The notes below the pieces were generated by a model. It was not told the origin of the DNA, did not search any database, and saw only the letters and a list, made by a program, of their open reading frames with translations. Positions 4,474 through 43,927 of a stretch of 60,634 nt of DNA are shown in pieces (within the stretch, counting starts at the first letter, position 1; each line of letters opens with the position of its first letter). The position numbers and the translations under genes are program-made. This DNA is from a virus: positions 1 to 60,634 of the IMG/VR virus record IMGVR_UViG_3300033142_002332, one strand, 5' to 3'.

Positions 4474-4479
4474 TATAAT
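4474..4479 (+). promoter_or_regulatory. Candidate -10 element for nrdDG
   Basis: A perfect TATAAT box follows the terminator and lies 40 bases before the chosen nrdD start. No good -35 box is visible. If it is used, transcription starts near 4486, which excludes the upstream ATG at 4478. Confidence 0.45.
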
Positions 4480-4519
4480 GAATAACAGATTGCTTAATCC
4501 AAAACAGAAAGAAAATAAA

Positions 4520-7024
4520 ATGAATAAAGAAGAGCTATTATCTTTAAAAAAAGAAGGTAAGACTAACCTAGAGTGTTCAAAGATTTTTAATGTCTGTAAA
4601 TCAACTATCTCCAATCATGTAATTTCACTAATCAATGAAGGAAGGCTAAAAAAAACAGAGATAGTTAAAAAAAAAGCTTGGAATGAAGGAACAACTAAGA
4701 ACAGGGTTAAAGTTAAGTGTTCTTATTGCAATAAAGAAAAAATAATTCATGGTTGTAGTTATAAAAGAAACGTAACAGGATTGTTTTATTGCAATCAAAC
4801 ATGCAGACAAGCTAATACTTACCAGGTTAGGACTTGTCAGTATTGTAATGATGAATATAAGGCTATTAGGGGATCAACACGTAAGTATTGTTCTCATAAA
4901 TGTTCTATGGAAAAAAAAGAACAAACGTTTAAATATGTTAAAAAAAGAGACGGAAGCATTCAAGAGTTTGATATAAATAAGATTATAAGGGCCATAGGAA
5001 GGTCTGGGAAAGAGACAGGTGAATTTGATGATGTAATTACTTCTCGTTTAGCGATTAGAGTTGTTAATCTTCTTGAGATGAATGTGTATAATTCTACGCC
5101 TGAGATAGAACAAATTCAAGATATAGTTGAAGATGTTTTATTAACCTCTCCTTTTAAAAAGACAGCTAAGTCTTATATTCTTTATCGTGAACAGCACGCT
5201 AGGTTAAGGGATTTTGCTAAGAAAGCTAATTTAGACCTGGTTGATTCATATCTTAATAACCTTGACTGGAAGGTTAAAGAGAACAGTAACATGGGTTATT
5301 CTTTACAAGGACTTAATCAGTATATTTCTAGTGAGATTAGTAAGAGCTATTGGCTAAATAAAATTTACACTAGCCAGATCCGTAATGCTCATTTGTCTGG
5401 AGATTTTCATATTCATGATTTAAATCTTCTTAGCGTTTATTGTGTTGGTTGGGATTTACAGAATCTTCTTAAAATAGGGTTTAAAGGTGTAGCTGGTAAG
5501 ATAGAAAGTAAGCCTGCTAAACACTTTCGTAGTGCTTTAGGTCAGATTGTTAATTTCTTTTATACCCTTCAAGGAGAAGCTGCAGGCGCACAAGCATTTT
5601 CAAATTTTGATACGTTATTAGCTCCTTTTATTCGATATGATGGGCTTAATGAAGAAGAAGTAGCCCAGGCAATGCAGGAGTTCATTTTTAACATCAATAT
5701 TCCTACACGAGTTGGGTTCCAAACACCTTTTACAAATATTACTCTTGATTTGCAGCCACCGTCAACATTGAAAAGCCAATCTGTTATTATTGGTGGGAAA
5801 TTACAAAAAGAAACTTATGCAGAGTTTCAAGACGAAATGCATATGTTTAACAAAACCTTTCTTAATGTAATGCAAAAAGGAGATGGAAAAGGAAGGGTAT
5901 TTACTTTCCCAATTCCAACTTATAATATTGGGTCTGATTTTGATTGGGACAGTCCTAATCTTGAAACTTTATGGGAAGTTACTGCAAAGTACGGAACACC
6001 TTATTTTGCAAATTTCATTAATTCTGATATGTCAGTTGATGATGCTCGATCCATGTGCTGTAGGTTGAGATTAGACCTACGTCATTTAGATAGAAGAGGA
6101 GGCGGCTTATTTGGAGCAAATCCTTTAACAGGATCTATAGGTGTCGTAACTATTAATATGGCAAGATTAGGGCATATTTCTAAAGACGAAAAAGAATTTA
6201 TTGAAAAACTTGATCATCTTTTGGATCTTGCAAAAGATAGCTTAGAGATTAAGAGAAGGTTGCTTGAAAGCTTTACAGATAAAAAGCTTTATCCTTATAC
6301 AAAGTATTATTTAAAAGAGATAAAGAAGCATTATAATCAGTATTGGTATAATCATTTTTCAACTATTGGGTTGATTGGAATGAATGAAGCTTGCCTTAAT
6401 TTATTTGGTAAAGACATAGGAACAAAAGAAGGCAATAAGTTTGCTGCGAAGATACTTGATCATATGAGGGATAAGCTTCTTTCTTTTCAAGAAGAAACAG
6501 GTAATATGTATAATCTTGAAGCAACTCCTGCAGAAGGAACTTCTTATCGTCTTGCTAAACTAGATAAAAAGTATTATCCAGAGATTATTTCAGCTCAACC
6601 TAAAGAAGGTTCTGGTATTAAAAGGCCTTTTTATTCTAATTCAACTCAACTTCCTGTTAATTATAGTCATGATATTTTTGATGTTCTTGATAAGCAAGAT
6701 AATTTACAAAAAAAATACACGGGAGGCACAGTACTGCATATCTTTTTGGGAGAGTCTCTTGCGCAACCTGAAAATTTAAAGAAGTTCATAAAAAAAGTGT
6801 GCGAAAACTATAATCTTCCTTATTTTACGATTACACCCACCTTTAGTATTTGTTCTGATCATGGTTATTTGAAAGGAGAGCAGCCGTTTTGTCCTGAGTG
6901 CAAAAGCAAAACAGAAATTTATTCTAGAGTTGTTGGTTATTTACGACCTGTTGATCAATGGAACGAAGGGAAGCAAGCAGAATTTCCTTTACGATCTCAT
7001 TATCAAATTGAGCATAAATCATGA
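4520..7024 (+). CDS. nrdD: Anaerobic ribonucleoside-triphosphate reductase with extra HTH/zinc N-terminus
   Basis: Class III reductase that makes deoxynucleotides without oxygen using a glycyl radical. Visible features in order: an N-terminal helix-turn-helix (~residues 1-45); two Cys-rich motifs (CSYC...CNQTC and CQYC...CSHKC, ~65-130); an ATP-cone (~135-230, YVKKRDGSIQEFDINKI); catalytic-core cysteines in SVYCVGWDL and SMCCRLRLD; and a C-terminal zinc site (ICSDHGYL...FCPEC) before the glycyl-radical loop RVVGYLRPV. The HTH/zinc segment is not part of ordinary NrdD and resembles DNA-binding parts of phage HNH/homing endonucleases. Start 4520 is preferred over in-frame 4478 because that codon overlaps the -10 box. 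It overlaps nrdG by four bases. Confidence 0.93.
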   Translation: MNKEELLSLKKEGKTNLECSKIFNVCKSTISNHVISLINEGRLKKTEIVKKKAWNEGTTKNRVKVKCSYCNKEKIIHGCSYKRNVTGLFYCNQTCRQANTYQVRTCQYCNDEYKAIRGSTRKYCSHKCSMEKKEQTFKYVKKRDGSIQEFDINKIIRAIGRSGKETGEFDDVITSRLAIRVVNLLEMNVYNSTPEIEQIQDIVEDVLLTSPFKKTAKSYILYREQHARLRDFAKKANLDLVDSYLNNLDWKVKENSNMGYSLQGLNQYISSEISKSYWLNKIYTSQIRNAHLSGDFHIHDLNLLSVYCVGWDLQNLLKIGFKGVAGKIESKPAKHFRSALGQIVNFFYTLQGEAAGAQAFSNFDTLLAPFIRYDGLNEEEVAQAMQEFIFNINIPTRVGFQTPFTNITLDLQPPSTLKSQSVIIGGKLQKETYAEFQDEMHMFNKTFLNVMQKGDGKGRVFTFPIPTYNIGSDFDWDSPNLETLWEVTAKYGTPYFANFINSDMSVDDARSMCCRLRLDLRHLDRRGGGLFGANPLTGSIGVVTINMARLGHISKDEKEFIEKLDHLLDLAKDSLEIKRRLLESFTDKKLYPYTKYYLKEIKKHYNQYWYNHFSTIGLIGMNEACLNLFGKDIGTKEGNKFAAKILDHMRDKLLSFQEETGNMYNLEATPAEGTSYRLAKLDKKYYPEIISAQPKEGSGIKRPFYSNSTQLPVNYSHDIFDVLDKQDNLQKKYTGGTVLHIFLGESLAQPENLKKFIKKVCENYNLPYFTITPTFSICSDHGYLKGEQPFCPECKSKTEIYSRVVGYLRPVDQWNEGKQAEFPLRSHYQIEHKS

Positions 7025-7614
7025 AAATAGGAGGATATCAGTCGCTTACATTGAGCGACTTTCCTGGGAATGTTGCAGCTATTGTTTTCACTCAAGGTTG
7101 CAACTTTCGTTGTCCTTTTTGTCATAATTTTGACCTTCTTGGAATTAAACCTTCTAAGAAAACATTTAATGATCAAGATATTTTTGATAACTTAAAGAGC
7201 AGGTTATTGTTATTGGATGGAGTTGTTATTACTGGAGGAGAGCCCACTTTACAAAAAGACCTATTTAGTTTTATTAGTAAAATTAAGAACATAGGTCTTA
7301 AAATTAAGCTTGATACTAACGGAAGTAACCCTAAGATAATAGAGAATCTATTAAATAACGAAAAATTAGACTATATCGCTATGGATATAAAAGCACCTTT
7401 TAGTAAGTATAATCAAGTAGCAGGCGTTGACGTTTGTATAAACAAAATTAAGAGAAGCATTGATTTGATACTTGCAAGTAAAATTTCTTATGAGTTTAGA
7501 ACTACCTTTGCAAAAGATATTTTGTCAGAAAAAGATATCTGTGAAATAAAAAAAAGCTTACCTAACGAAGCAAACTATAAGATACAAGTCTGTAAAAAAA
7601 TAAACAATTTATAA
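7021..7614 (+). CDS. nrdG: Anaerobic ribonucleotide reductase activating protein (radical SAM)
   Basis: 197 residues. The N-terminus reads GGYQSLTLSDFPGNVAAIVF followed by the radical-SAM iron-sulfur motif CNFRCPFC (Cys27, Cys31, Cys34) and the SAM-binding GGEPTLQ. The enzyme uses SAM and a 4Fe-4S cluster to make the glycyl radical on NrdD. Its ATGA start overlaps the nrdD stop, so the two are translationally coupled. All key residues are present and the length fits the pyruvate-formate-lyase-activase-like NrdG group. Confidence 0.92.
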   Translation: MKIGGYQSLTLSDFPGNVAAIVFTQGCNFRCPFCHNFDLLGIKPSKKTFNDQDIFDNLKSRLLLLDGVVITGGEPTLQKDLFSFISKIKNIGLKIKLDTNGSNPKIIENLLNNEKLDYIAMDIKAPFSKYNQVAGVDVCINKIKRSIDLILASKISYEFRTTFAKDILSEKDICEIKKSLPNEANYKIQVCKKINNL

Positions 7615-9114: not shown

Positions 9115-10392
9115 ATGAGTTTTATTTATAAAGCTAGTGTATTTTTTAGTGTTTTTTTTGTTTCTTTACGATTGAGCGGTTCTCCTGAAAATTCTTTTTC
9201 AAGATGTTTTAGAACCTTTGACCCTGGTTTGAGTGATATTAGGGGTTTTGATTTTAGCCCTCGTGGCGATTCAATTGCATTTGTTGATGGTAGAGGGAGC
9301 TTTTTATCTCGAGATAATGTCTTTTCTAGTCTTGATAATAGGAATTTTAATCGAGTTTCTGAATTTATTTTTAAGCATGGGGCTCATGATATAAAGTTTT
9401 CTCCTGATGGAAAATTCATACTAGTTTGTAATGATAGAGGATGGCTTGGTTTATTAGATAATTCAAGTTTTGAAGTTAAAAATTTTAAAGCTTGGAATGT
9501 GGACTTTAATTTAATTGATTTCAGCCCCGATGGATTTCACTTTATAGCTGGGGGGGTTGGAAGGGATGAACATTTAATATATTTATTTAATTTAGAAGGA
9601 GAGGTGATAAGGATTTTTAAGGGACATTCTGGCAAGATAACAAGGCTCAAATATAGCCCAGATGGAAAGTCTTTTATTTCTGGTAGTACAACAGGAACTA
9701 TAAATATTTGGACTGTTGACGGTGAATTATTAAAGACTGTTAATTATGTTTCGTCAGCAGTATCCTTGTTAGATTTTCCAGCAAAAATTGTTGGTTTAGA
9801 TTTTTCGTCATCAGGTAAATTTTTTATGTCTTGTGATGCTTGGGGAGAAGTCAAGCAGTGGACTTCTAGGGGTGTTTTAAGTCGCGTGTTTCAATCTGAT
9901 ATTGAGGGGGTTGATATTGCGGAATTTAATCCTAATGGACAAGACCTTCTTATGGGAGGGTCTGGAAAGGTTGAATGGTGGAGTTCAGAGGGTCATTTAA
10001 AAGAAACCTTTAATAGGTTTGCAGGCCTAGTAAAAGACTTGAATTATAGACCTGACGGAGATGGTTTTTTGGCTTTATTTGAGAGGGGCGGCGTTAAGTT
10101 TTGGTTTTTAAGACCAGCATTTCAAACAAACCCTAGTGCTATAGCTAATATTTTTCCTACTGTAGGGAAAGCCCCCTTTACAGTATTTTTAGATGGTCTT
10201 GGTTCTCATGATCTTAATGATCGTGGACACATTTTGGATCATGTTTGGAAGATCTCAGATGGTAGGGTTTTAGAGGGTGGATATCGAAAACTTAAGTTTA
10301 AAAGATCTGGTGTTTATACGGTTACTTTGACTGTAACAAATAGAAGAGGTAACAGTGAGACAAGTTTTGAAAAGTATATTTTTGTTGACTAG
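9115..10392 (+). CDS. Predicted secreted seven-bladed WD40 propeller with C-terminal PKD domain
   Basis: The N-terminus (YKASVFFSVFFVSLRLSGS) is a likely signal peptide. Seven propeller units follow, each with an F/Y-S-P-D-G-like turn: FDFSPRGDS, IKFSPDGKF, IDFSPDGFH, LKYSPDGKS, LDFSSSGKF, AEFNPNGQD and LNYRPDGDG, several ending in W (NIWTVDG, KQWTSRG, EWWSSEG). Residues ~335-425 form a PKD-like domain (PTVGKAPFTVFLDGLGSHD ... GVYTVTLTVTNRRGN). Both modules mediate protein or surface binding, so an exported or envelope role is inferred; no enzyme site is seen. It follows the endolysin by 24 bases with AGAAGGG as ribosome site and precedes two exported nuclease-like proteins. Confidence 0.8.
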   Translation: MSFIYKASVFFSVFFVSLRLSGSPENSFSRCFRTFDPGLSDIRGFDFSPRGDSIAFVDGRGSFLSRDNVFSSLDNRNFNRVSEFIFKHGAHDIKFSPDGKFILVCNDRGWLGLLDNSSFEVKNFKAWNVDFNLIDFSPDGFHFIAGGVGRDEHLIYLFNLEGEVIRIFKGHSGKITRLKYSPDGKSFISGSTTGTINIWTVDGELLKTVNYVSSAVSLLDFPAKIVGLDFSSSGKFFMSCDAWGEVKQWTSRGVLSRVFQSDIEGVDIAEFNPNGQDLLMGGSGKVEWWSSEGHLKETFNRFAGLVKDLNYRPDGDGFLALFERGGVKFWFLRPAFQTNPSAIANIFPTVGKAPFTVFLDGLGSHDLNDRGHILDHVWKISDGRVLEGGYRKLKFKRSGVYTVTLTVTNRRGNSETSFEKYIFVD

Positions 10393-11761: not shown

Positions 11762-12103
11762 TTAACATCCTGTGATATTAATTGTTGAATCTACGCCTAG
11801 TTTTTCAGTGCAAGTATCTATAATTCTATATGTATTATGAGTTTTCTTATATTCCATATATGTATCTTTCAACTCGGAATTTGTTCGATCTTCATAAAGA
11901 TCTAAAAAGAAAATATTTATGCCTATTAAACATAAAGAAAACATCATAGTGCTAGCTGCAACATTCTCTGTTACGTGTTTAGTTAAAAACATTGAACCTA
12001 TAAATGCCACTAAACTAAAAATAATCGATATTCCTAGCTTAAATCTTGTTTTGCCTACTTCTTCTATTCTTTTGATAAATTGCTTTTGTAATTCTATTCT
12101 CAT
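11762..12103 (-). CDS. Small two-helix membrane protein
   Basis: About 113 residues: a charged N-terminal helix (IELQKQFIKRIEEVGKTRF), two hydrophobic segments (LGISIIFSLVAFIGSMFL and ASTMMFSLCLIGINIFFL) and a polar C-terminus with two cysteines. The start at 12103 is preceded by GGAAC; the same frame runs further upstream through three 39-bp repeats that are read here as leader copies. It is the second gene of a leftward pair controlled by the promoter repeats at 12.6-12.8 kb. Function unknown; membrane role (holin-like, exclusion or signalling) is only a guess. Confidence 0.6.
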   Translation of the reverse strand: MRIELQKQFIKRIEEVGKTRFKLGISIIFSLVAFIGSMFLTKHVTENVAASTMMFSLCLIGINIFFLDLYEDRTNSELKDTYMEYKKTHNTYRIIDTCTEKLGVDSTINITGC

Positions 12104-12133
12104 GTTAGTTCCTTCGTTGTTTTGTTTTTGATT

Positions 12134-12250
12134 GTTTGTTGTTTTGTTATTCATTTTGTTTTTTCTTTCTTTGTTTGTTGTTTTGTTATTCATTTTGTTT
12201 TTTCTTTCTTTGTTTGTTGTTTTGTTATTCATTTTGTTTTTTCTTTCTTT
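12134..12250 (-). repeat. Three perfect 39-bp tandem leader repeats
   Basis: Three identical 39-bp units at 12134, 12173 and 12212. On the minus strand each contains an A-rich ribosome-site-like AAAGAAAG, an ATG and codons for NNKTTNK. A fourth near-identical copy (one base different) is at 12567-12605, upstream of the other leftward gene. They look like duplicated translation start regions rather than coding sequence. Confidence 0.8.
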
Positions 12251-12278: not shown

Positions 12279-12554
12279 CTAAAAGTTCTGGAAAAAATAA
12301 AATAAAAGTCCTGGACAAAGTAGAATACAAGATAAAGCTAGAGCAATTGTTATATGTGTAACTATTTCTTCTTTTTCTTTATCTTTTCTTTTTTGTTCTT
12401 TCTCTAATTGTATTTTTATATTGACTTTTTCTTCAATGAGTTTGTCTATTTTGCTACCCAAAGAATTATAACCAAAATAAAATGATGAATTTGTTTCAAA
12501 TAGTTTTTCTATTTCTTTATTAATTTCAATTATTCTTTCTTGTTCTTTTCTCAT
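12279..12554 (-). CDS. Coiled-coil protein with C-terminal membrane anchor
   Basis: About 91 residues. A charged helical region (KEQERIIEINKEIEKLF and KVNIKIQLEKEQKRKDKEKE) is followed by a C-terminal hydrophobic segment (ITIALALSCILLCPGLLFYFF), so the bulk probably faces the cytoplasm. ATG 12554 is preceded by GGAAC; in-frame ATGs further upstream belong to the repeated leader. First gene after the two leftward promoter copies. Function unknown. Confidence 0.55.
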   Translation of the reverse strand: MRKEQERIIEINKEIEKLFETNSSFYFGYNSLGSKIDKLIEEKVNIKIQLEKEQKRKDKEKEEIVTHITIALALSCILLCPGLLFYFFQNF

Positions 12555-12613
12555 GTTAGTTCCTTTGTTTGTTGTTTTGTTATTCATTTTGTTTTTCCTT
12601 TCTTTGTTTTATT

Positions 12614-12683
12614 GTTTTCGTTATTCATATTTTTAATATACATTATTAAAAAAGTTTGTCAAGTAAAATTTTAAACTTTTTTT
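12614..12683 (-). promoter_or_regulatory. Promoter/operator/leader repeat, copy A (leftward)
   Basis: On the minus strand: -35 TTGACA (12662-12657), 16-base spacer, -10 TATATT (12640-12635) and an ATG at 12628, seven bases downstream. AAAAAAGTTT and AAACTTTTTT flank the -35 as an inverted repeat. Drives the small membrane-protein pair. Confidence 0.8.
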
Positions 12684-12712
12684 ATTTTTTTTAAAATTAA
12701 TTTTAAAAGATT

Positions 12713-12786
12713 GTTTGTTTTCGTTATTCATATTTCTAATATACATTATTAAAAAAGTTTGTCAAGTAAAATTTTAAACTTTTTTT
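12713..12786 (-). promoter_or_regulatory. Promoter/operator/leader repeat, copy B (leftward)
   Basis: Near-identical to copy A: TTGACA at 12765-12760, TATATT at 12743-12738, ATG at 12731, with the same inverted repeat. Its leader frame runs into copy A and no separate gene lies between them, so it is a tandem promoter or the relic of a lost gene. Confidence 0.75.
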
Positions 12787-12821
12787 ATATTGTTTGTGAT
12801 TATTTTTTTATTAGTGTATTA

Positions 12822-13175: not shown

Positions 13176-13275
13176 AGGCAGATTATTTGTGTGCCTAGCA
13201 TTTATTTTAGTCTAGGTAGCTTAGCTATTTACATTTAAAAATCTTTTCATAAATTGCATCTGAATATTTTTAAAT

Positions 13276-13363
13276 AAAAAAAGTTTAAAATTTTACTTGA
13301 CAAACTTTTTTAATAATGTATATTAGAAATATGAATAACGAAAACAAACAAAAGGAAAAATAA
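13276..13363 (+). promoter_or_regulatory. Promoter/operator/leader repeat, copy C (drives parA)
   Basis: -35 TTGACA 13297-13302, 16-base spacer, -10 TATATT 13319-13324. Dyad arms AAAAAAGTTT (13277-13286) and AAACTTTTTT (13302-13311) flank the -35. The likely transcript start coincides with an ATG at 13331. Confidence 0.85.
13331..13363 (+). CDS. Ten-residue leader peptide upstream of parA
   Basis: ATG followed by nine codons ([10 protein letters not shown]) and TAA, four bases before the parA start. The ATG would be at or next to the 5' end of the mRNA and has no ribosome site of its own, while the leader's AAAAGGAAAA serves parA. It may be translated as a leaderless start or may simply be a conserved 5' region. 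Confidence 0.35.
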
Positions 13364-13367
13364 AAAA

Positions 13368-14318
13368 ATGAATAGCAAAATAATTTCTGTGTTTAACCAT
13401 AAAGGAGGTGTTGGGAAAACAACAACGGTTTTCAATTTAGGGAAAATAATGGCTAATTTAGGGAAAAGGGTTTTATTGGTTGATTCTGATCCCCAATGTA
13501 ATTTGACAAATTTAACAATAGGCTTAGATAACTTAGAGAAGTTTTATAGTAGTAAAAAAGAAACAAACATTTTTAATTGTCTTGCTACTGTTTTTGAGAT
13601 ACCAGGTTTTTTTTCTAATAATTCAAATGAAAAATATATCAAAGAGACAAAAACCAAAAACATGTATCTTTTAGCTGGCAATGTTAGATTTTCTGAATTA
13701 GATGTTATGTTATCAACTGCATTAACTAGTAATAAAACTTTGCCTATTTTAAAAAAATTTATTGGTTCTATAAATAAACTTATAATAGATATTGTTGATA
13801 AAAATAAAATTGACATAGTATTGATTGATATGAGCCCTAGTATATCTTCAACAAATGCTTGTATCTTAATGGGCTCTGATTACTTCATAATGCCTGTATC
13901 TCCAGATATTTTTTGTTGTCAGGCTATGGCAGCGTTATCTGTCATATTTTCACAATGGCATAAGGTTTTTGAGCAGTTTAGGGGATCAAGCGTTAAAAGT
14001 CTTTTACAAAAGAATCCTCCAAAACTAATAGGGATGATCTCTCAGAGTTATATTTTTAATAGTAGCTCTAAAAAATGGTTTGATAGGATAATAAAGGTAA
14101 TGAATGACGTGTTAATTCCTGAACTTAAAAAAAATAATATGGTTATAGACGAAAGTATTTTTAGTAAAGTTGCAACAGAAAATGGTTCTTATAATCTAAT
14201 TAACATCCCATACATTAAGTCACTAGAAACAGAAAGATTTATGACAAAAAACAATAAAGAGTTGTCTGAAAGTATTTTTACAAGACTAGAAGAAATAATA
14301 AGTAAATTAACAGCATAG
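13368..14318 (+). CDS. parA: ParA/Soj-family partition ATPase
   Basis: 316 residues with the deviant Walker A motif [15 protein letters not shown] near the start, Walker A' [13 protein letters not shown], and Walker [14 protein letters not shown]. These ATPases bind DNA and position plasmids or other cargo. No ParB is recognised next to it, although small basic proteins nearby (for example 17313) could be centromere binders. In a phage this suggests a plasmid-like (phage-plasmid) maintenance state or positioning of phage components; neither is proven. It is controlled by promoter repeat copy C. Confidence 0.85.
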
Positions 14319-14360
14319 GCCTTTTATTATTTTGTTAACTGATAGCGTAAGTAGCAAAAA

Positions 14361-14449
14361 AATAAAAAAAGTTTAAAATTTTACTTGACAAACTTTTTTA
14401 ATAATGTATATTAGAAATATGAATAACGAAACAAACAAAAGGAAAAATA
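14361..14449 (+). promoter_or_regulatory. Promoter/operator/leader repeat, copy D (drives cheB-like gene)
   Basis: -35 TTGACA 14385-14390, 16-base spacer, -10 TATATT 14407-14412, ATG 14419 seven bases on, and the same inverted repeat as the other copies. A one-base loss compared with copy C puts the leader ATG in frame with the gene downstream. Confidence 0.85.
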
Positions 14450-14454
14450 AAAAA

Positions 14455-15024
14455 ATGAATAAAATTATTGCCATAGGGTCATCAACTGGTGGAATAGCTG
14501 CTCTTACAGACTTATTAAAAAACCTTCCTACAGAAATACCTCCAGTTGTTATAGTACAGCACATACCTAAAGTGTTTTCTTTAAGTTTTGCAAACAGTCT
14601 TAATAAAATGTGTCCTTTTAAAGTAAAAGAAGCAGAAGACGGAGACGTTTTAAAAAAGAACACTGTTTATATAGCTCCAGGAGGAAAACAAACAAGAATT
14701 AGAAAAAGAGGATCCGACTTTGTTATTCTTGTAGTTGATGAAGAGCCTCATAATCATCATCGACCTAGCGTTGATATATTGTTTGACTCTGTAGCAAGGT
14801 ACATAAAAAATAGAGCAATTGGAGTTGTTTTAACAGGAATGGGAAAAGATGGAGCCAAAGGCCTTCTTAATATGAAAAAAGAAGGAGCCCTAACTATTGC
14901 TCAGGACGAAAAAACATCAGTGGTTTTTGGAATGCCAAAATCAGCTATAGCGATAGGTGGTGTCTCAAAGGTCTTACCTTTACAGCGTATTCCAAAACAG
15001 CTGATGGATTGGGTTAATTTATAA
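14455..15024 (+). CDS. cheB: Free-standing CheB-type methylesterase/deamidase domain
   Basis: 189 residues that cover only the catalytic half of CheB, which removes methyl groups from chemoreceptor glutamates. The triad is intact: Ser10 in IGSSTGG, His36 in VIVQHIP and Asp132 in TGMGKDGA; the HHRPSVDILFDSVA and QDEKTSVVFGMPKSAI segments also match the family. The phosphorylated receiver domain that normally holds CheB in check is missing, so the enzyme would be always active. An in-frame ATG at 14419 belongs to the repeat leader; AAAGGAAAA supports 14455. It probably alters host chemotaxis or adaptation (inference). Confidence 0.9.
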   Translation: MNKIIAIGSSTGGIAALTDLLKNLPTEIPPVVIVQHIPKVFSLSFANSLNKMCPFKVKEAEDGDVLKKNTVYIAPGGKQTRIRKRGSDFVILVVDEEPHNHHRPSVDILFDSVARYIKNRAIGVVLTGMGKDGAKGLLNMKKEGALTIAQDEKTSVVFGMPKSAIAIGGVSKVLPLQRIPKQLMDWVNL

Positions 15025-15042: not shown

Positions 15043-15582
15043 ATGAAAACAGCTACTGAAGTAAAATTTACATCGTATGGTATGCCTATTGTTGTATATG
15101 AAATAATTAAAACTATTGATGGATTGGATATGACTATTTTTGATAATAGAAAGCATAAGCAGCTCGAATTAAAAAGGAGAATAAGAACACAGATAAGAGA
15201 AACAAGAGAAGAAGCCTTAAAAGAATACGCTAGCTGTTTTGAATTTGAAAGCTCAATAGAGGATCTTAACAAAGCCGAAATAAAAAACAAAATTGAAGAG
15301 TTTTTATCTTGTTATGATAGAATTTCAAAAGAAAATCTAAGAGAAATGGTTTTGTTCTTTGATGAACATCGAAAAGAGATAAAAGATAAAGTATTACGCT
15401 TTTTATTATTAGACGATCTTAGTGGTTTTTTAAATTACTTTAGAGAAAAAAACGAATTATATCTTGCTTCAAAAAAAGCTAAAGATCTGCATAATTACAT
15501 GTATAAGCGTTATAAAGGAGAGTATTATTGGTATATTAATAATAACCGTGAAGGTAATGATCTTAATTTAAGAGACCCTTAA
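15043..15582 (+). CDS. Hypothetical helical protein after cheB-like gene
   Basis: 179 residues, strongly charged and helical (RRIRTQIRETREEALKEY, DEHRKEIKDKVLRFLLLDD), with no recognised motif, signal or membrane segment. It starts 18 bases after the CheB-like gene with GGAAAG upstream, so it shares that transcript and may act in the same process. Function unknown. Confidence 0.6.
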   Translation: MKTATEVKFTSYGMPIVVYEIIKTIDGLDMTIFDNRKHKQLELKRRIRTQIRETREEALKEYASCFEFESSIEDLNKAEIKNKIEEFLSCYDRISKENLREMVLFFDEHRKEIKDKVLRFLLLDDLSGFLNYFREKNELYLASKKAKDLHNYMYKRYKGEYYWYINNNREGNDLNLRDP

Positions 15583-15654: not shown

Positions 15655-16035
15655 ATGTCTAATCTATCGTTAGAATATTGCAATGTTAAAAATAACATAA
15701 AAAAAGCATTAAAAGAAACAACTGGATATTACCCTTTTGAAAAAGATGAAGAACTATCAATTGAACATATGCTAAAAAACGGTGTTTATATCTATAAGGT
15801 ATTAAAAAAATTAGGTTTTAATGCAGTAAGGGCACAGTCAGAGTCTAGCTATTTAACAGAGTATCTAGAATATGGAGAGCCACCAAACATGAAAACACTT
15901 GTTGATAATAGGTATTTAATATTATATGTCATAGCTGGATATCAAGTATTTGACATACACCCTTTATTTTTGCATATAGATGGGGCATCTCCAGAGGAAG
16001 TAATTGAGTTTTTATTAAATCATGTGAGTGAGTAA
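15655..16035 (+). CDS. Hypothetical protein
   Basis: 126 residues, soluble, with a C-terminal part (YLILYVIAGYQVFDIHPLF, SPEEVIEFLLNHV) that looks like a compact mixed fold. AAAGGA precedes the start. The 72 bases before it contain a short A-rich frame (ATG 15591) resembling the leader segments of the promoter repeats. Function unknown. Confidence 0.55.
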   Translation: MSNLSLEYCNVKNNIKKALKETTGYYPFEKDEELSIEHMLKNGVYIYKVLKKLGFNAVRAQSESSYLTEYLEYGEPPNMKTLVDNRYLILYVIAGYQVFDIHPLFLHIDGASPEEVIEFLLNHVSE

Positions 16036-16097
16036 TTGTACGCATATGAATATTATAATAAAAAAATAATAAAGATATGAAAATAAAGGAGAAAACA

Positions 16098-16376
16098 ATG
16101 ATTAAAGAAACGGTGTATTTAAATAGTGGCACAGATAAGCCTTTATCTAAAGAAGATATTTCCAATATAGCTAAAGATGTAGCTGTAAAATTAAATAAAG
16201 TTAAAGAAAAAATTTTAAAGTTTAAAGGATTACAAGAGATGTCGCCAGAAGCGACCAGATGTTTGAATGATTTTAAAGGTAATTTGTTGAATCTTTCAGA
16301 AAAATCTATAGAGTTAAGTGAAGAATTAAAGAAAGATATCTGTAAAAAAGGTATAATAAATAAAAAATACGCATAA
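16098..16376 (+). CDS. Hypothetical helical protein
   Basis: 92 residues, mostly helical (VAVKLNKVKEKILKF, LLNLSEKSIELSEELKKD). The start at 16098 is chosen over 16077 because AAAGGAG is correctly spaced from it. Function unknown; member of the small-gene operon after the CheB-like gene. Confidence 0.55.
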   Translation: MIKETVYLNSGTDKPLSKEDISNIAKDVAVKLNKVKEKILKFKGLQEMSPEATRCLNDFKGNLLNLSEKSIELSEELKKDICKKGIINKKYA

Positions 16377-16388
16377 TGGAGAACTATA

Positions 16389-16883
16389 ATTAATAATAAA
16401 AGGGGTATAGATAAAATAAAAAAAGAGTATCTAAAAGTATTAAGCTTTGAGACAATAGACTCATTTAATAAAGAAATCAGTTGTATAGAATATTTATGTC
16501 AACAAACGGAGTATATAGCGTATGAAAATAAAGAGGCTTTTAAATATTTAAATATACCTAAAGAATTTAAAAAGTTGGCTATTGATTTATTTATAGAATT
16601 AAATGAAGTAATTAGTGTCTATAGAGGTTTACGTAAAGAAGACATCATAAGATATTGTTTACGGCTTGATAGATTACCTGTGATAAATAGAATAATTCTG
16701 TCGTTTAAGGAAAAAGCTATAAAAGAAATATTAAACGCTAAAAACAAAGAAGACATTTTATCTTTAATGTTGGATTTTTTAAAAATGTCTTTAGAGTGTG
16801 GTTCGCTTTTTCTTGAATTGTTAAGTGATGTGTATTATGAAAATATAGAAGATATGGTTTTAAATTCACCTAAAGCTTCTTGA
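16389..16883 (+). CDS. Hypothetical helical protein with probable AUU start
   Basis: The frame is open from the previous stop (16374-16376) to 16883 but contains no ATG, GTG or TTG until TTG 16575, which has no ribosome site. GGAG at 16378-16381 sits seven bases before ATT 16389, so an AUU start, as known for infC, gives a 164-residue protein. Its sequence is uniformly helical (YLKVLSFETIDSFNKEI, NEVISVYRGLRKEDIIRYCL), including the part before 16575. Function unknown. A sequencing error or mutated start codon is the alternative. Confidence 0.5.
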   Translation: MNNKRGIDKIKKEYLKVLSFETIDSFNKEISCIEYLCQQTEYIAYENKEAFKYLNIPKEFKKLAIDLFIELNEVISVYRGLRKEDIIRYCLRLDRLPVINRIILSFKEKAIKEILNAKNKEDILSLMLDFLKMSLECGSLFLELLSDVYYENIEDMVLNSPKAS

Positions 16884-16908: not shown

Positions 16909-17274
16909 ATGCCCGAAAAAAATAACGTTATAAGTGTAGTTCATAATTTAAAAGCTAAAGGTTATGAAGATGTTATTGGAGACTGGGTAATGATGAGCAA
17001 AAATAAACCAAAAGAGCTATTAAGTGAAAAAGTAACTAACATATATGATAAAAACGAAACAACTCTTAACGATAGCAGTAAAGAAAAAATGATTAATTTT
17101 GATTTTAATATTAAAAGTGATAAAGATTATTCTTTAGTAAAAGATAAAGTAAATAAAGCTTTAGTTAGCTCTATAAATAAAGTCAGCAGTGCTTACGGAA
17201 GCGGAATTAATTTAAAAGTAACTATTTATGTAAAAAAGGAGTGCAATGAGTTTATAAAAAAACTAAAAAATTAA
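16909..17274 (+). CDS. Hypothetical protein
   Basis: 121 residues with AAGGA upstream. The C-terminal half (INFDFNIKSDKDYSLVK, INLKVTIYVKKECNEFIKK) suggests an alpha-beta fold. No motif recognised. Confidence 0.5.
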   Translation: MPEKNNVISVVHNLKAKGYEDVIGDWVMMSKNKPKELLSEKVTNIYDKNETTLNDSSKEKMINFDFNIKSDKDYSLVKDKVNKALVSSINKVSSAYGSGINLKVTIYVKKECNEFIKKLKN

Positions 17275-17312: not shown

Positions 17313-17558
17313 ATGAATAAATCAAAAAATGTCGAAAACTTAAAAGCATACTCCTTTAAATGTAACAATGAGGTAAAGGATTTATATAAAAAATGGAGTC
17401 AATGTTATTCGCAGCATACTATTAGCAGCTTTTTTAACAGTGCTCTAATATCTTTTTTAAAAGAGAATAAAGATAAAGCCTTACCTATGTTTAATGATAA
17501 TGATAAGAAAAAAGTCTTAAGGATAATTCAAGACTTTAAGGAATTAGATCTTAAGTAA
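17313..17558 (+). CDS. Small hypothetical protein, possible DNA-binding
   Basis: 81 residues, basic, with AGAAAGGAAAA upstream. The stretch SFKCNNEVKDLYKKWSQ followed by HTISSFFNSALISFLKEN resembles ribbon-helix-helix proteins in length and strand-helix-helix order, so it is a weak candidate partner for ParA or a repressor. A strong terminator follows 20 bases later. Confidence 0.45.
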   Translation: MNKSKNVENLKAYSFKCNNEVKDLYKKWSQCYSQHTISSFFNSALISFLKENKDKALPMFNDNDKKKVLRIIQDFKELDLK

Positions 17559-17578
17559 CAAATTAGTTATTTAGCATG

Positions 17579-17622
17579 AAAAGAAACTAGCCTGTAAAAA
17601 CTAGGTTAGTTTCTTTTTTTTT
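17579..17622 (+). terminator. Intrinsic terminator
   Basis: A 15-bp stem (AAAAGAAACTAGCCT / AGGTTAGTTTCTTTT, one G-T pair) with a 9-base loop is followed directly by more T residues. It ends the small-gene operon. Confidence 0.85.
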
Positions 17623-30342: not shown

Positions 30343-32181
30343 ATGATAGAAAAAAAATATAAGAATAAAAAATGGCTTTATAGCAGGTATGTTATAAGAC
30401 AAATGTCTTTAAGACAAATAGCTAGTGAATGCAGTAAAGACATTGGTACTATGAAGAATTGGCTGAATAAACATGATATTCCAATGCATAGCAAAGAAGT
30501 TCAGTCTTCTATCCATTCTAGAGCAATAAAAAATAGAGATAAGAGTTTTCAGGAAAACAGAATAAAAAAGATTAAAAGTCTTTGGGATGAAAAAAGAAAA
30601 GTAAATTTTCCTTTATTAAATAAGGAATTTTTAGAGAAGAATTATCCTTTAAAGATTGTAAGGGATTTAGCTGAAGAAATAAAATGCACTAAGCGAATGA
30701 TACATGAAGCTTTAGATAGTTATAATATAAAGAAAAGAACATATAAGGAAGAGCATGAGTTGTCTCAAAGGAAGAGGTATGAATCAATACGTAACAATAC
30801 TTTTCACAATAAAGAGTGGTTAGAAGAAAAGTATAAAAATAGCTGTATAACTGATATATCAAAAGAATGTGGTGTTAATGCAGGTGCAATTTCTTATTGG
30901 TTGAATGTATTTAATATTCCAAAGCATGATAAAAAAACAAGAAAAGAAACTTTAAGAATAAAAGTAAAAGAGTATTGGAACAGTCTTACTGATAAAAACA
31001 GAAAAGAACTTACGATAAAAATACATAATTCTAAGAAAAAGAATGGTAGTTATGGGAAATCATTTACCGAAGATTTATTTGCTAGAAGCTTAATACAGAA
31101 TAATATTAAATTTGAGAGACAAAAAAAATATGACAGATGGCTTATAGATTTTTATCTTATTGATTATGGTATTTATATTCAGTTTGATGGAGATTATTGG
31201 CACGGTCATTTAAATACTATAGAAGAGTTAGAAAAAACAGAACAGGGAAAAGTAATTATTAAAACAATGAAAAGGGATAGTGAGCAAAATAAAGCTATAC
31301 CTAACCTTATTAGAATTTTGGATAGTGAATTTAACGATAGTTTATATTACTCTTATGACAGTGGGAAATGTAAAGATGAAATTGATAAAATAGTTAAAAT
31401 GAAGGGGGATTATTTTAGCTCTCCTATGTACAATAAAATTGTTCTGACGTATCAGCCTAGTTTTTATGAAGAAGAAAATAAGAGATGGAAACATAGGAAA
31501 ATAAAGGAAAAAATAATTAAAAACAGGTGTTCTTATTTAAACAAACTACCTTATGAACTAACAGATAAAGAGATACTTAGAGGCTTTAAAATTTCTGGCG
31601 TTAACTATGGGTTTAGTCATTTCAATCCTCTTTGGATAAAAGCTTTTATAGAAGAATATAGCATTAATAGTATATATGATCCATGTGCTGGATGGGGTCA
31701 TCGTTTACTAGGAGCTAACAACATTAAATATATAGGTAATGATATAGATACTACTGTTACTAATGGTCTTTTCAACATAGCAAAAGAGTTCAATTTACGT
31801 GATAAAATAATATACAATTACGATTCAAGTGAGTTTATACCTAAAGAGAGATATGAAGCTGTTTTTACATGTCCTCCTTATTTTAATTTAGAAAAATATA
31901 GTAGCAAAGAGACATCAACTAACAAGTATCCTGTTTATTCAGATTGGTTGAATCTTTGGTGGAAAAACACAGTAAGAAACAGTTTAGTTAATTGTTCTAA
32001 ATATTTTTGCTATGTTATATGTGATAAGTATAAAGAGGATATGAACAAAACATGTGTAACTTTAGGGCTAACTAAGGTAAAGGAGATAGAGCTAGGCTCT
32101 TCTAAAAAAGTATCTCACTTTAATAGAGCTAATAAAAAAGAAAAAGTTAAAAGTGATATATTAGTTATTTTTATGCTATAG
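30343..32181 (+). CDS. HTH - Vsr/EDxHD-like nuclease - adenine methyltransferase fusion
   Basis: 612 residues with three parts. Residues ~10-185 contain three similar helix-turn-helix units (LRQIASECSKDIGTMKNWLN, VRDLAEEIKCTKRMIHEAL, ITDISKECGVNAGAISYWLN). Residues ~235-290 look like a Vsr/EDxHD-type nuclease (SFTEDLFARSL ... YDRWLIDFYL ... IYIQFDGDYWHG). Residues ~400-612 are a DNA methyltransferase with SAM motif DPCAGWGHRLLGA (~445) and catalytic TCPPYF (~508), likely N6-adenine or N4-cytosine specific. It may be a single-chain restriction-modification or homing enzyme. It interrupts the usual sheath-tube gene pair and has its own terminator upstream and promoter, so it was probably acquired. 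Confidence 0.8.
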   Translation: MIEKKYKNKKWLYSRYVIRQMSLRQIASECSKDIGTMKNWLNKHDIPMHSKEVQSSIHSRAIKNRDKSFQENRIKKIKSLWDEKRKVNFPLLNKEFLEKNYPLKIVRDLAEEIKCTKRMIHEALDSYNIKKRTYKEEHELSQRKRYESIRNNTFHNKEWLEEKYKNSCITDISKECGVNAGAISYWLNVFNIPKHDKKTRKETLRIKVKEYWNSLTDKNRKELTIKIHNSKKKNGSYGKSFTEDLFARSLIQNNIKFERQKKYDRWLIDFYLIDYGIYIQFDGDYWHGHLNTIEELEKTEQGKVIIKTMKRDSEQNKAIPNLIRILDSEFNDSLYYSYDSGKCKDEIDKIVKMKGDYFSSPMYNKIVLTYQPSFYEEENKRWKHRKIKEKIIKNRCSYLNKLPYELTDKEILRGFKISGVNYGFSHFNPLWIKAFIEEYSINSIYDPCAGWGHRLLGANNIKYIGNDIDTTVTNGLFNIAKEFNLRDKIIYNYDSSEFIPKERYEAVFTCPPYFNLEKYSSKETSTNKYPVYSDWLNLWWKNTVRNSLVNCSKYFCYVICDKYKEDMNKTCVTLGLTKVKEIELGSSKKVSHFNRANKKEKVKSDILVIFML

Positions 32182-41044: not shown

Positions 41045-42886
41045 ATGGAAATAAATAAAAAACAAAATAATTTTCAAGCTAAAACCCTTACCACATGTGA
41101 CCTAAAGGCTTTAACACAAGAAGATAGCAGTTTTATCTTCAATTGTTTTTTAGAAATTCTTAGGCATAATGTTGTTTCAGATAAGCCAAATGCTTTCAAT
41201 AAGATATTTACGTTATTTCTTTGCAAGATTGTTGACGAGGATAGAGAGCCTGATGAAGAGCTACATTTTCAATGGCTAGAAGGTCAAGACGATAATATTT
41301 CATTTCAGAAAAGATTGACAGACCTTTATAACAGAGGAATGTTAGAGTTGTTGGACAAAAAGGTAACTGATATCAGTGACAGTGAATTTGACAAGAAGTT
41401 CGGACAATTAGAAGGTAAGGCTAAGGATGAACTCAAAAAAATTATAACTGAAATACGGCTTAAAAAGGATAGTGAATTTGCTATTAAAGAAGTCTATGAC
41501 GATGTGTCTTTTCAAGACAATGCAATAGTTGTAAGAGAATTGGTTGAATTATTACAATTCTATAAAATAAAATATAATTACCGCCAGCAATTTTTAAGTG
41601 ATTTTTTTGAGTTGCTTATAAGCACTGGATTTAAACAAGAATCAGGGCAATTTTTTACTCCTGTTCCAGTAGCAAAATTTATCATAAAAAGCTTACCTAT
41701 AAAAGAAATTATTTGTGAAAAAATTAAGATAGGAAATAAAAACGATTTATTACCTACAATTATTGACTATGCGTCAGGAAGTGGACATTTTTTGACCGAA
41801 TCAATGGAAGAAGTTCAAAATAATATTAATAATATTAATGAAAGCATATTAAGTCCTGATATAAAAGAAATTATCAAAAAATGGAAAGAAATGCCTCTTA
41901 GTTGGGCTAAAGACTATATTTACGGTATAGAAAAAGACTATAGGTTAGTTAAAGTTTCAAAAGCTAGTTGTTATCTTCATGGAGGAGGATTAATAAATAT
42001 TATTCATGGTGATGGACTAGGTGATTTTGCTACTTCTAATGAATTTAAAGGCTTACTCAAAGAAACGGATCAAACTTATACACAAGATAACAAACAGTTT
42101 GATATTGTCATTTCAAACCCCCCTTATTCAGTTTCAGCTTTTAAAGGATTAATGGATGAGGAAAAGTCAAAAAGGGGGTTTGATCTTTATACTAATTTAA
42201 CTGACAAAAGTTCAGAAATAGAGTGTTTATTTATCGAGAGAACGAAGCAACTGCTAAAAGATGGAGGAGTGGCTGGTATTATTCTGCCAAGATCTATTTT
42301 AAGCAACACAGGTATTTATACTAAAGCCAGAGAAATTATTTTAAAATATTTTGATATTGTTGCTATTACTGAATTAGGAAGCAATACCTTTATGGCTACT
42401 GGTACGAATACTATTATTTTGTTTTTAAGACGTAAGAATAATGAAGATTGGATTAAGGTTAAAGGTTTAATTGATAGTTTTTTTATCAATATACAAGATG
42501 ATAGCATCAGTGGTTTTGAAATACCAGCATCAGTATCAAAATACATTTCACATGCTTGGGATAGTATTTCATTTGATGATTATAAAACATTATTGCAAAA
42601 ACAACCCAACGAAGCCGTACAGCAACACGAAACCTATAAAGAATACAAAAAGAAAATAAAAGCTAAAAATGAGCAAGAAGAGTGGAATAAAATAATTGAA
42701 TTGGAGAAAGAAAAATTACTTTATTTCATTATTGTCTATTCGCAAAAAGCAGTATTGGTAAAAACTGGTCATAAAAAAGAAGAAAAACAGTTTTTAGGTT
42801 ATGAATTTAGTAATCGTAGAGGCAGCGAAGGTATACATCCAATACAGAGAGGAAAAAAAATAGATGAATGCACAAAGCTTTTTTAA
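41045..42886 (+). CDS. hsdM: Type I restriction-modification methyltransferase subunit, frameshifted near the end
   Basis: 613 residues in this frame. SAM motif DYASGSGHFLTES (~residue 240) and catalytic NPPYSVSAFKG (~357) are intact; QFFTPVPVAKFI and AGIILPRSILSN are also typical of HsdM. The frame ends at a run of six T (42879-42884). Removing one T joins it to the continuing homology in the next frame (42885-43085). The core would still be made, but the C-terminus that contacts HsdS is cut. No hsdS or hsdR is nearby, so it is an orphan, possibly decaying or phase-variable gene. Confidence 0.8.
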   Translation: MEINKKQNNFQAKTLTTCDLKALTQEDSSFIFNCFLEILRHNVVSDKPNAFNKIFTLFLCKIVDEDREPDEELHFQWLEGQDDNISFQKRLTDLYNRGMLELLDKKVTDISDSEFDKKFGQLEGKAKDELKKIITEIRLKKDSEFAIKEVYDDVSFQDNAIVVRELVELLQFYKIKYNYRQQFLSDFFELLISTGFKQESGQFFTPVPVAKFIIKSLPIKEIICEKIKIGNKNDLLPTIIDYASGSGHFLTESMEEVQNNINNINESILSPDIKEIIKKWKEMPLSWAKDYIYGIEKDYRLVKVSKASCYLHGGGLINIIHGDGLGDFATSNEFKGLLKETDQTYTQDNKQFDIVISNPPYSVSAFKGLMDEEKSKRGFDLYTNLTDKSSEIECLFIERTKQLLKDGGVAGIILPRSILSNTGIYTKAREIILKYFDIVAITELGSNTFMATGTNTIILFLRRKNNEDWIKVKGLIDSFFINIQDDSISGFEIPASVSKYISHAWDSISFDDYKTLLQKQPNEAVQQHETYKEYKKKIKAKNEQEEWNKIIELEKEKLLYFIIVYSQKAVLVKTGHKKEEKQFLGYEFSNRRGSEGIHPIQRGKKIDECTKLF

Positions 42887-43266: not shown

Positions 43267-43927
43267 TTAATTGTCTATGCCAATGAGTTCCTTTGCAGGT
43301 TTATTGTCTTTTAGATATTTTGCAACATCTGGTTCTAGAGTGTCATAAATTAGTTTTATGACAAGTTTTCCCCACCATTTAGGGCGATTCTTTAGAGGGG
43401 TACTCCAATTAGTTAATCTTCCAAACTCTTCCCACAATTCATCAGGAAAAGTTTTTTCCCAAGCTCTTAATTCTTCAGCTATATATAGCCTGAGTTTGAT
43501 TTGCAGCCCATCTTCTTTACGCTCATATTGATAACCTGTAACTTCATCTATTAGGGCTTCTAATCCAATATCAGCACATGCAGAAAGAAGAATGCTACAT
43601 TTTATAGCGATTTCTTTTTGTCTCTCTGTTTGTAATGCATTATCGCTAAGTGCCTTGACATATGCTCTACAAATATTAAGAAATTGTCTTGCTTCTAAGC
43701 ATTTAGCTATTTTAGACTCTCCTGGGATGCTCAAATCAATAAGTTCCGCACGGATAGATTCAGCGTCCAGATAGGGGTTTTAGTGGATTTATCCCTATAT
43801 AATCCGCAAGCCCACTTCTTTTTTTCTCTGCAATCGCTTTAACCATTCCTATTTGGCTTATTAACCTTTTACCAGTATCTGATACATAGCAACCAACTCT
43901 ATTAGTTTTATATTTAGAAATAGACAA
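43267..43927 (-). pseudogene. P63C-domain protein, frameshifted and probably N-terminally truncated
   Basis: The longer frame (43267-43734 and upstream) has YQYERKEDGLQIKLRLYI, ELRAWEKTFPDELWEEFGRL and RPKWWGKLVIKLIYDTLEP, matching the bacteriophage P63C domain. Upstream, the family's N-terminal part (GCYVSDTGKRLISQIGMVK) is in another frame. Removing one base from the four-base G run at 43774-43777 (C on the coding strand) joins them. No ATG with a ribosome site is present at the 5' end. It is the only minus-strand gene among the tail genes, and is part of the damaged island. Confidence 0.7.

Follow-up and report, generated by a model that had tools for sequence, protein, structure and literature searches.

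The window analysed here, positions 1-60,634 of an IMG/VR virus record (IMGVR_UViG_3300033142_002332), encodes at positions 14455-15024 on the plus strand a protein of 189 residues that consists of the catalytic (methylesterase/deamidase) domain of CheB alone. The protein is a member of the CheB methylesterase catalytic domain family (PF01339), as seen from the domain match, the catalytic triad and the fold. The PF01339 profile covers it fully (positions 1-174 of 174, 222 bits, E 5.4e-66, curated cut-off 24), and a sequence search against solved structures returns 1chd (E 1.4e-55, gap-free), 1a2o (4.9e-55) and 6ymz (1.2e-53). The identity to Salmonella CheB (1chd/1a2o) is 50% over 184 residues. 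An AlphaFold2 model built from six sequences reaches a pLDDT of 91.4, and Foldseek aligns it to 1chd with E 5e-25, a TM score of 0.94 and an rmsd of 1.2 Å. The initial annotation, which had read a CheB catalytic domain at this locus and proposed a structure prediction against CheB, is thereby borne out.

In the gap-free alignment to 1chd, S10, H36 and D132 correspond, at a constant offset of 154, to S164, H190 and D286 of Salmonella CheB. The triad, annotated earlier as intact at exactly these residues, is invariant across the aligned CheB homologues, and T11 is also present. The fold and the substrate-side conserved motifs are likewise shared with the Salmonella enzyme. An alignment with 31 homologues from outside the window shows 37 columns with a conservation of 93% or more; 36 of these are kept in the phage protein, and the sole departure is M80 to T. 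In a tree calculated for the donor lineage, the phage protein has a long end branch (0.75) and is placed inside no well-supported clade. That 36 of the 37 columns are kept, although the branch is so long and the cellular matches listed are only 42-56% identical, argues for selection for function. From the sequence, we judge it quite likely that the protein has methylesterase activity.

What distinguishes the phage protein from Salmonella CheB, besides being phage-encoded, is that the N-terminal CheY-like receiver and the linker are missing. The entire open frame comprises just 211 residues, with 23 codons ahead of the domain, so there is no receiver, as the initial annotation had also stated. 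The profile of two-domain CheB (NF001965 / PRK00742) is covered only at positions 168-353 and scores 254 bits, below its cut-off of 293. The protein is not a two-domain response regulator; a receiver with a phospho-acceptor Asp is absent. Cellular CheB proteins were searched in four phyla (more than 700 genomes) at strict E-value limits, and among the roughly 150 closest matches listed (42-56% identity) every frame has at least 311 residues. Below these limits, a shorter CheB frame is found in Marivirga (218 residues, 31% identity). Every near relative inspected has at least 135 residues before the CheB domain, and several visibly start with a CheY-like receiver. As the nearest genes are two-domain, receiver loss is the simplest account of the phage form.

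Two further in-frame ATGs exist upstream, at 14404 and 14419, but these fall at the -10 box or at the point where transcription is expected to begin. Both leader and start region are common to cheB and the neighbouring parA, and in the parA copy the corresponding ATG frame is shut by a TAA. For these reasons, 14455 is the likelier start of cheB.

The record represents a true fragment of a myovirus genome. Besides an endolysin, it encodes a head maturation protease, a major head protein, a tail sheath and baseplate proteins, in agreement with the phage setting assumed at the outset. The capsid protein has about 33% identity to SPO1-group phages, while the best match of the tail sheath is Myxococcus phage Mx1 (29%). 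A search with the capsid protein in three phyla gave either nothing or, in 2 of 396 Bacteroidota, matches of 26-32% identity. In distant sister phages (L007-L009; capsid proteins 46% identical) CheB is absent and ParA has no match. The window also encodes a class III ribonucleotide reductase, NrdD, and a radical-SAM NrdG-like partner, which suggests an anaerobic host. These two genes (4478-7614, plus strand), the NrdD with an ATP-cone and the activase-like gene, directly follow the major head protein; the NrdD has about 48% identity to that of an Oceanotoga phage.

Around cheB, an accessory island rich in AT extends from about 11.7 to 18 kb, with head genes on one side and further structural genes on the other. 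The neighbours of cheB are parA, small genes of unknown function and phage structural genes; cheA, cheR, cheW, MCP and flagellar genes are not among them, and the window proteins scanned include neither a chemoreceptor nor CheR nor any further chemotaxis protein.

A promoter and leader cassette at 14360-14455 (plus strand) precedes cheB. It contains a -35 box TTGACA (14385-14390), a -10 box TATATT (14407-14412) and a purine-rich leader (AAAAGGAAA) before the ATG. Initially this was described as a dedicated promoter, but it is in fact one of four near-identical cassettes, the others standing before parA and before small leftward genes. The parA copy (13272-13367, plus strand) has 92% identity with the cheB copy over 96 nt. 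On the minus strand, one cassette (12711-12788, 78 nt) is 100% complementary to the parA copy and another (12592-12691) is 90% complementary to the cheB copy over 100 nt. A 28-nt core, TTGACAAACTTTTTTAATAATGTATATT, has four exact occurrences in the window and none in 100 shuffles, and a 45-nt stretch of the cassette is present four times with at most one mismatch. All four cassettes carry an inverted repeat, AAAAAAGTTT/AAACTTTTTT, around the -35 box; judged by its sequence it may be an operator, but repeats of this kind are frequent in the AT-rich DNA of the window.

The gene behind the second plus-strand cassette (13368-14318, plus strand) encodes a ParA-like partition ATPase by its profile matches (AAA_31; PHROG 164). 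That this ParA could position chemoreceptor arrays, like ParC or PpfA, was considered and is not supported, as the profile matches are partition ATPases. The two minus-strand cassettes are arranged in tandem and face two leftward genes with hydrophobic segments, as read from the sequence. The first (12279-12587, minus strand) encodes a small protein with a charged helical part and a C-terminal hydrophobic segment, and the second (11762-12232, minus strand) a small protein with hydrophobic segments behind a repeated MNNKTTNKERKNK leader. In the leaders of both genes the start region is repeated in tandem (MNNKTTNKERKNK), as if the ribosome-binding site and the ATG had been duplicated several times.

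On the other side, a 179-residue gene (15043-15582, plus strand, from the ORF list) begins 18 nt past the cheB stop and is probably co-transcribed; a search for its relatives gave no confident one. It is followed by five small genes of unknown function on the same strand (15655-16035, 16077-16376, 16575-16883, 16909-17274 and 17313-17558), the rest of the probable operon, and by an intrinsic-terminator-like hairpin with 17 pairs and a T run (17578-17618, plus strand). With seven same-strand genes from its start to this hairpin, cheB probably heads an operon. With a predicted near-consensus, sigma-70-like promoter ahead of parA, cheB and the genes of small membrane-type proteins, the arrangement would suit a module for early takeover of the host or for carriage.

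The repeated cassette also raises the question whether a bacterial cheB was joined onto the phage contig during assembly, possibly at the ~96-nt repeat, which lies exactly upstream of the gene and could mis-join short reads. We consider this highly improbable. The bacterial cheB genes found have a receiver-sized N-terminus, there is no repeat on the 3' side, where the DNA continues with phage-like composition to the structural genes, and the codon usage is matched to the phage: neither the GC3 (0.21) nor the codon score of cheB lies outside the spread of the other phage genes.

In the virus collections searched, CheB appears to be rare outside the window. IMG/VR (2.9 million contigs) was scanned with two degenerate motifs; in controls, the pair recovers 30 of 31 known cheB loci. 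The scans returned 48 and 44 stretches, none of which is CheB by profile; three contain chance-level partial CheB matches, in frames of about 2,800 codons. Searching IMG/VR with narrow peptide patterns from the phage protein or its alignment gave no related locus, and the BFVD viral models contain no match at E <= 0.001. In INPHARED (50,697 records) four CheB matches are found, all of which look like bacterial DNA. Named by eye from their translations, H1 is a Salmonella cheB of 349 residues, H2 (MT835847) belongs to a flagellar/chemotaxis operon, H3 is a Wsp-like region adjoining a WspR-like response regulator, and H4 is a 7-kb fragment with bacterial-looking genes and a PAS-type protein beside the match. 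INPHARED "phage" records with bacterial-looking parts around cheB, such as chemotaxis or flagellar operons, are OR851186.1, OQ572403.1, MT835847.1 and MT837354.1. The phage protein also matches a phage-collection family, PHROG 22245 (E 1e-55). However, with a profile length of 349 this family is full-length CheB, the same length as Salmonella CheB, and host DNA within phage records may be its origin. The search for homologues in other phages, suggested in the initial annotation, therefore found no second independent viral example in IMG/VR, INPHARED or BFVD, where records near-identical to the window were possibly left out. Recurrence in several independent phages, as expected of an established auxiliary gene, is not seen for cheB.

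This rarity, together with the position of cheB in an island of small genes without known function, is what would be expected if it were a captured and expressed fragment of a host gene that does nothing for the phage. However, the gene is old enough to have decayed and has not done so. Its active site is intact and all but one of the 37 conserved columns are kept, its codon usage is phage-like, and a phage promoter cassette that is repeated elsewhere stands upstream. A functionless passenger is thus improbable.

The consequences of losing the receiver can be judged from cellular CheB. The receiver of a two-domain CheB blocks access to the active site as long as it is not phosphorylated, and in E. 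coli deletion of the regulatory domain activates CheB, though less than phosphorylation does (PMC8609364). The earlier proposal of a constitutive activity is sound on this analogy. Without its regulatory domain, the E. coli enzyme has a low affinity for receptors, with a KD of 0.66-1.2 mM, and no site for the pentapeptide tether (PMC8609364). Lacking receiver and linker, the phage protein would have neither phospho-control nor a pentapeptide-binding site. It would always be on but untethered. An untethered, weakly binding enzyme, with a KD in the mM range as in E. coli, would need high expression, with which the near-consensus promoter is compatible.

A CheB of a single catalytic domain also exists as a natural form in Campylobacter jejuni (PMC3879368, PMC2147049), to which we liken the phage protein by description; there, however, it is a chromosomal adaptation enzyme. 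Its role in normal adaptation opens the way to a reading in which cheB, on a prophage or phage-plasmid, supplements or retunes the adaptation of the host and so tunes chemotaxis instead of disabling it. The cheB promoter sequence before a partition-type ParA is as expected of a maintained replicon. However, no integrase, repressor or ParB was recognised among the window proteins scanned, and nrdD/nrdG and the SPO1-like virion proteins would equally fit a lytic phage. A benefit of this kind for the host is unlikely.

We suggest instead that the phage, a myovirus that probably infects an anaerobe, acquired from a host-type CheB the catalytic half but not the inhibitory receiver. The gene would be expressed, early in infection or in carriage, from the near-consensus sigma-70 promoter sequence that is also present before parA and the small membrane-type proteins. 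The product would be an unregulated methylesterase/deamidase that hydrolyses glutamyl methyl esters on the host chemoreceptors regardless of CheA signalling, so that the receptors would be driven toward the demethylated state and adaptation blunted. In the E. coli scheme, persistent demethylation of the receptors lowers CheA activity, biases the cells to smooth swimming and removes adaptation. By the same logic, CheA activity in the infected host would go down and smooth swimming would be favoured. We regard this as the best explanation, with a probability of roughly 55%, and in our judgement the chance that the phage protein changes host receptor methylation during infection is likewise a little better than even. 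The benefit for the phage may lie in dispersal of infected cells, in a saved signalling cost or in carriage.

The demethylated receptors could also belong to a chemosensory system that does not serve flagella, such as one for type IV pili or for surface sensing or one of Wsp- or Frz-like type, in which case attachment or second-messenger output would be altered and not swimming. CheB homologues do operate in such systems, and among the matches listed, some of the closest relatives of the phage protein are from Bacteroidota, where chemosensory genes need not accompany flagella. However, the phage protein is near ordinary E. coli-like CheBs in sequence, as also seen in the identity to Salmonella, and away from the WspF-like form in L030. 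Such a target is quite unlikely.

The initial annotation knew of no established phage function of this kind. For CheB this is nearly right, as our literature search on viral chemotaxis genes found no viral CheB, but genes for chemoreceptors (MCPs) have been described from viral scaffolds that were assigned to Desulfovibrio vulgaris (PMC9448743). Like cheB, these are phage genes expected to act on host chemotaxis; they add a receptor, however, while CheB is an enzyme that modifies receptors. For two phages of Pseudomonas syringae, a potential chemotaxis function has been mentioned (PMC11256456). An early protein of Pseudomonas phage LSL4, PIT4, alters host motility via signalling proteins (PMC10714779), but it binds histidine kinases and does not represent a chemotaxis enzyme taken up by a phage. 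Since receiver-less CheB and viral chemoreceptors are both already known, the phage-borne receiver-less form is a variant. If active, it would extend the phage effects on motility reported so far, which come from inhibitors of kinases and pili and from viral chemoreceptors, to the memory of adaptation, and a naturally receiver-free CheB would be available as a tool.

More tentatively, and at somewhat less than even odds, it can be speculated that the deregulated enzyme reprograms host navigation in infection or carriage, erasing chemotactic memory on the receptor side within one regulon shared with the partition ATPase and the membrane-type proteins. This would be a first instance in which a virus controls the behaviour of bacteria via chemoreceptor methylation. 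As few adaptation systems in biology are understood as well as this methylation, a viral enzyme acting on it allows one to ask, cleanly and quantitatively, whether phages steer the behaviour of their hosts and not just the metabolism.

Several other genes of the window deserve mention. A 425-residue protein (9115-10392, plus strand) adjoining the endolysin combines strong WD40 repeats (E 1e-18), a eukaryote-like beta-propeller in a phage, with a PKD domain at its C-terminus, and has no PHROG match. Directly after the tail sheath gene, a 612-residue HNH-endonuclease-like protein (30343-32181, plus strand) is possibly a homing or insertion element. The tail-gene region contains a 613-residue N6-adenine DNA methyltransferase (41045-42886, plus strand; Eco57I-like), and by the baseplate genes there is a lone minus-strand gene (43267-43734) that matches PHROG 2384, a family of unknown function, with E 1e-49.
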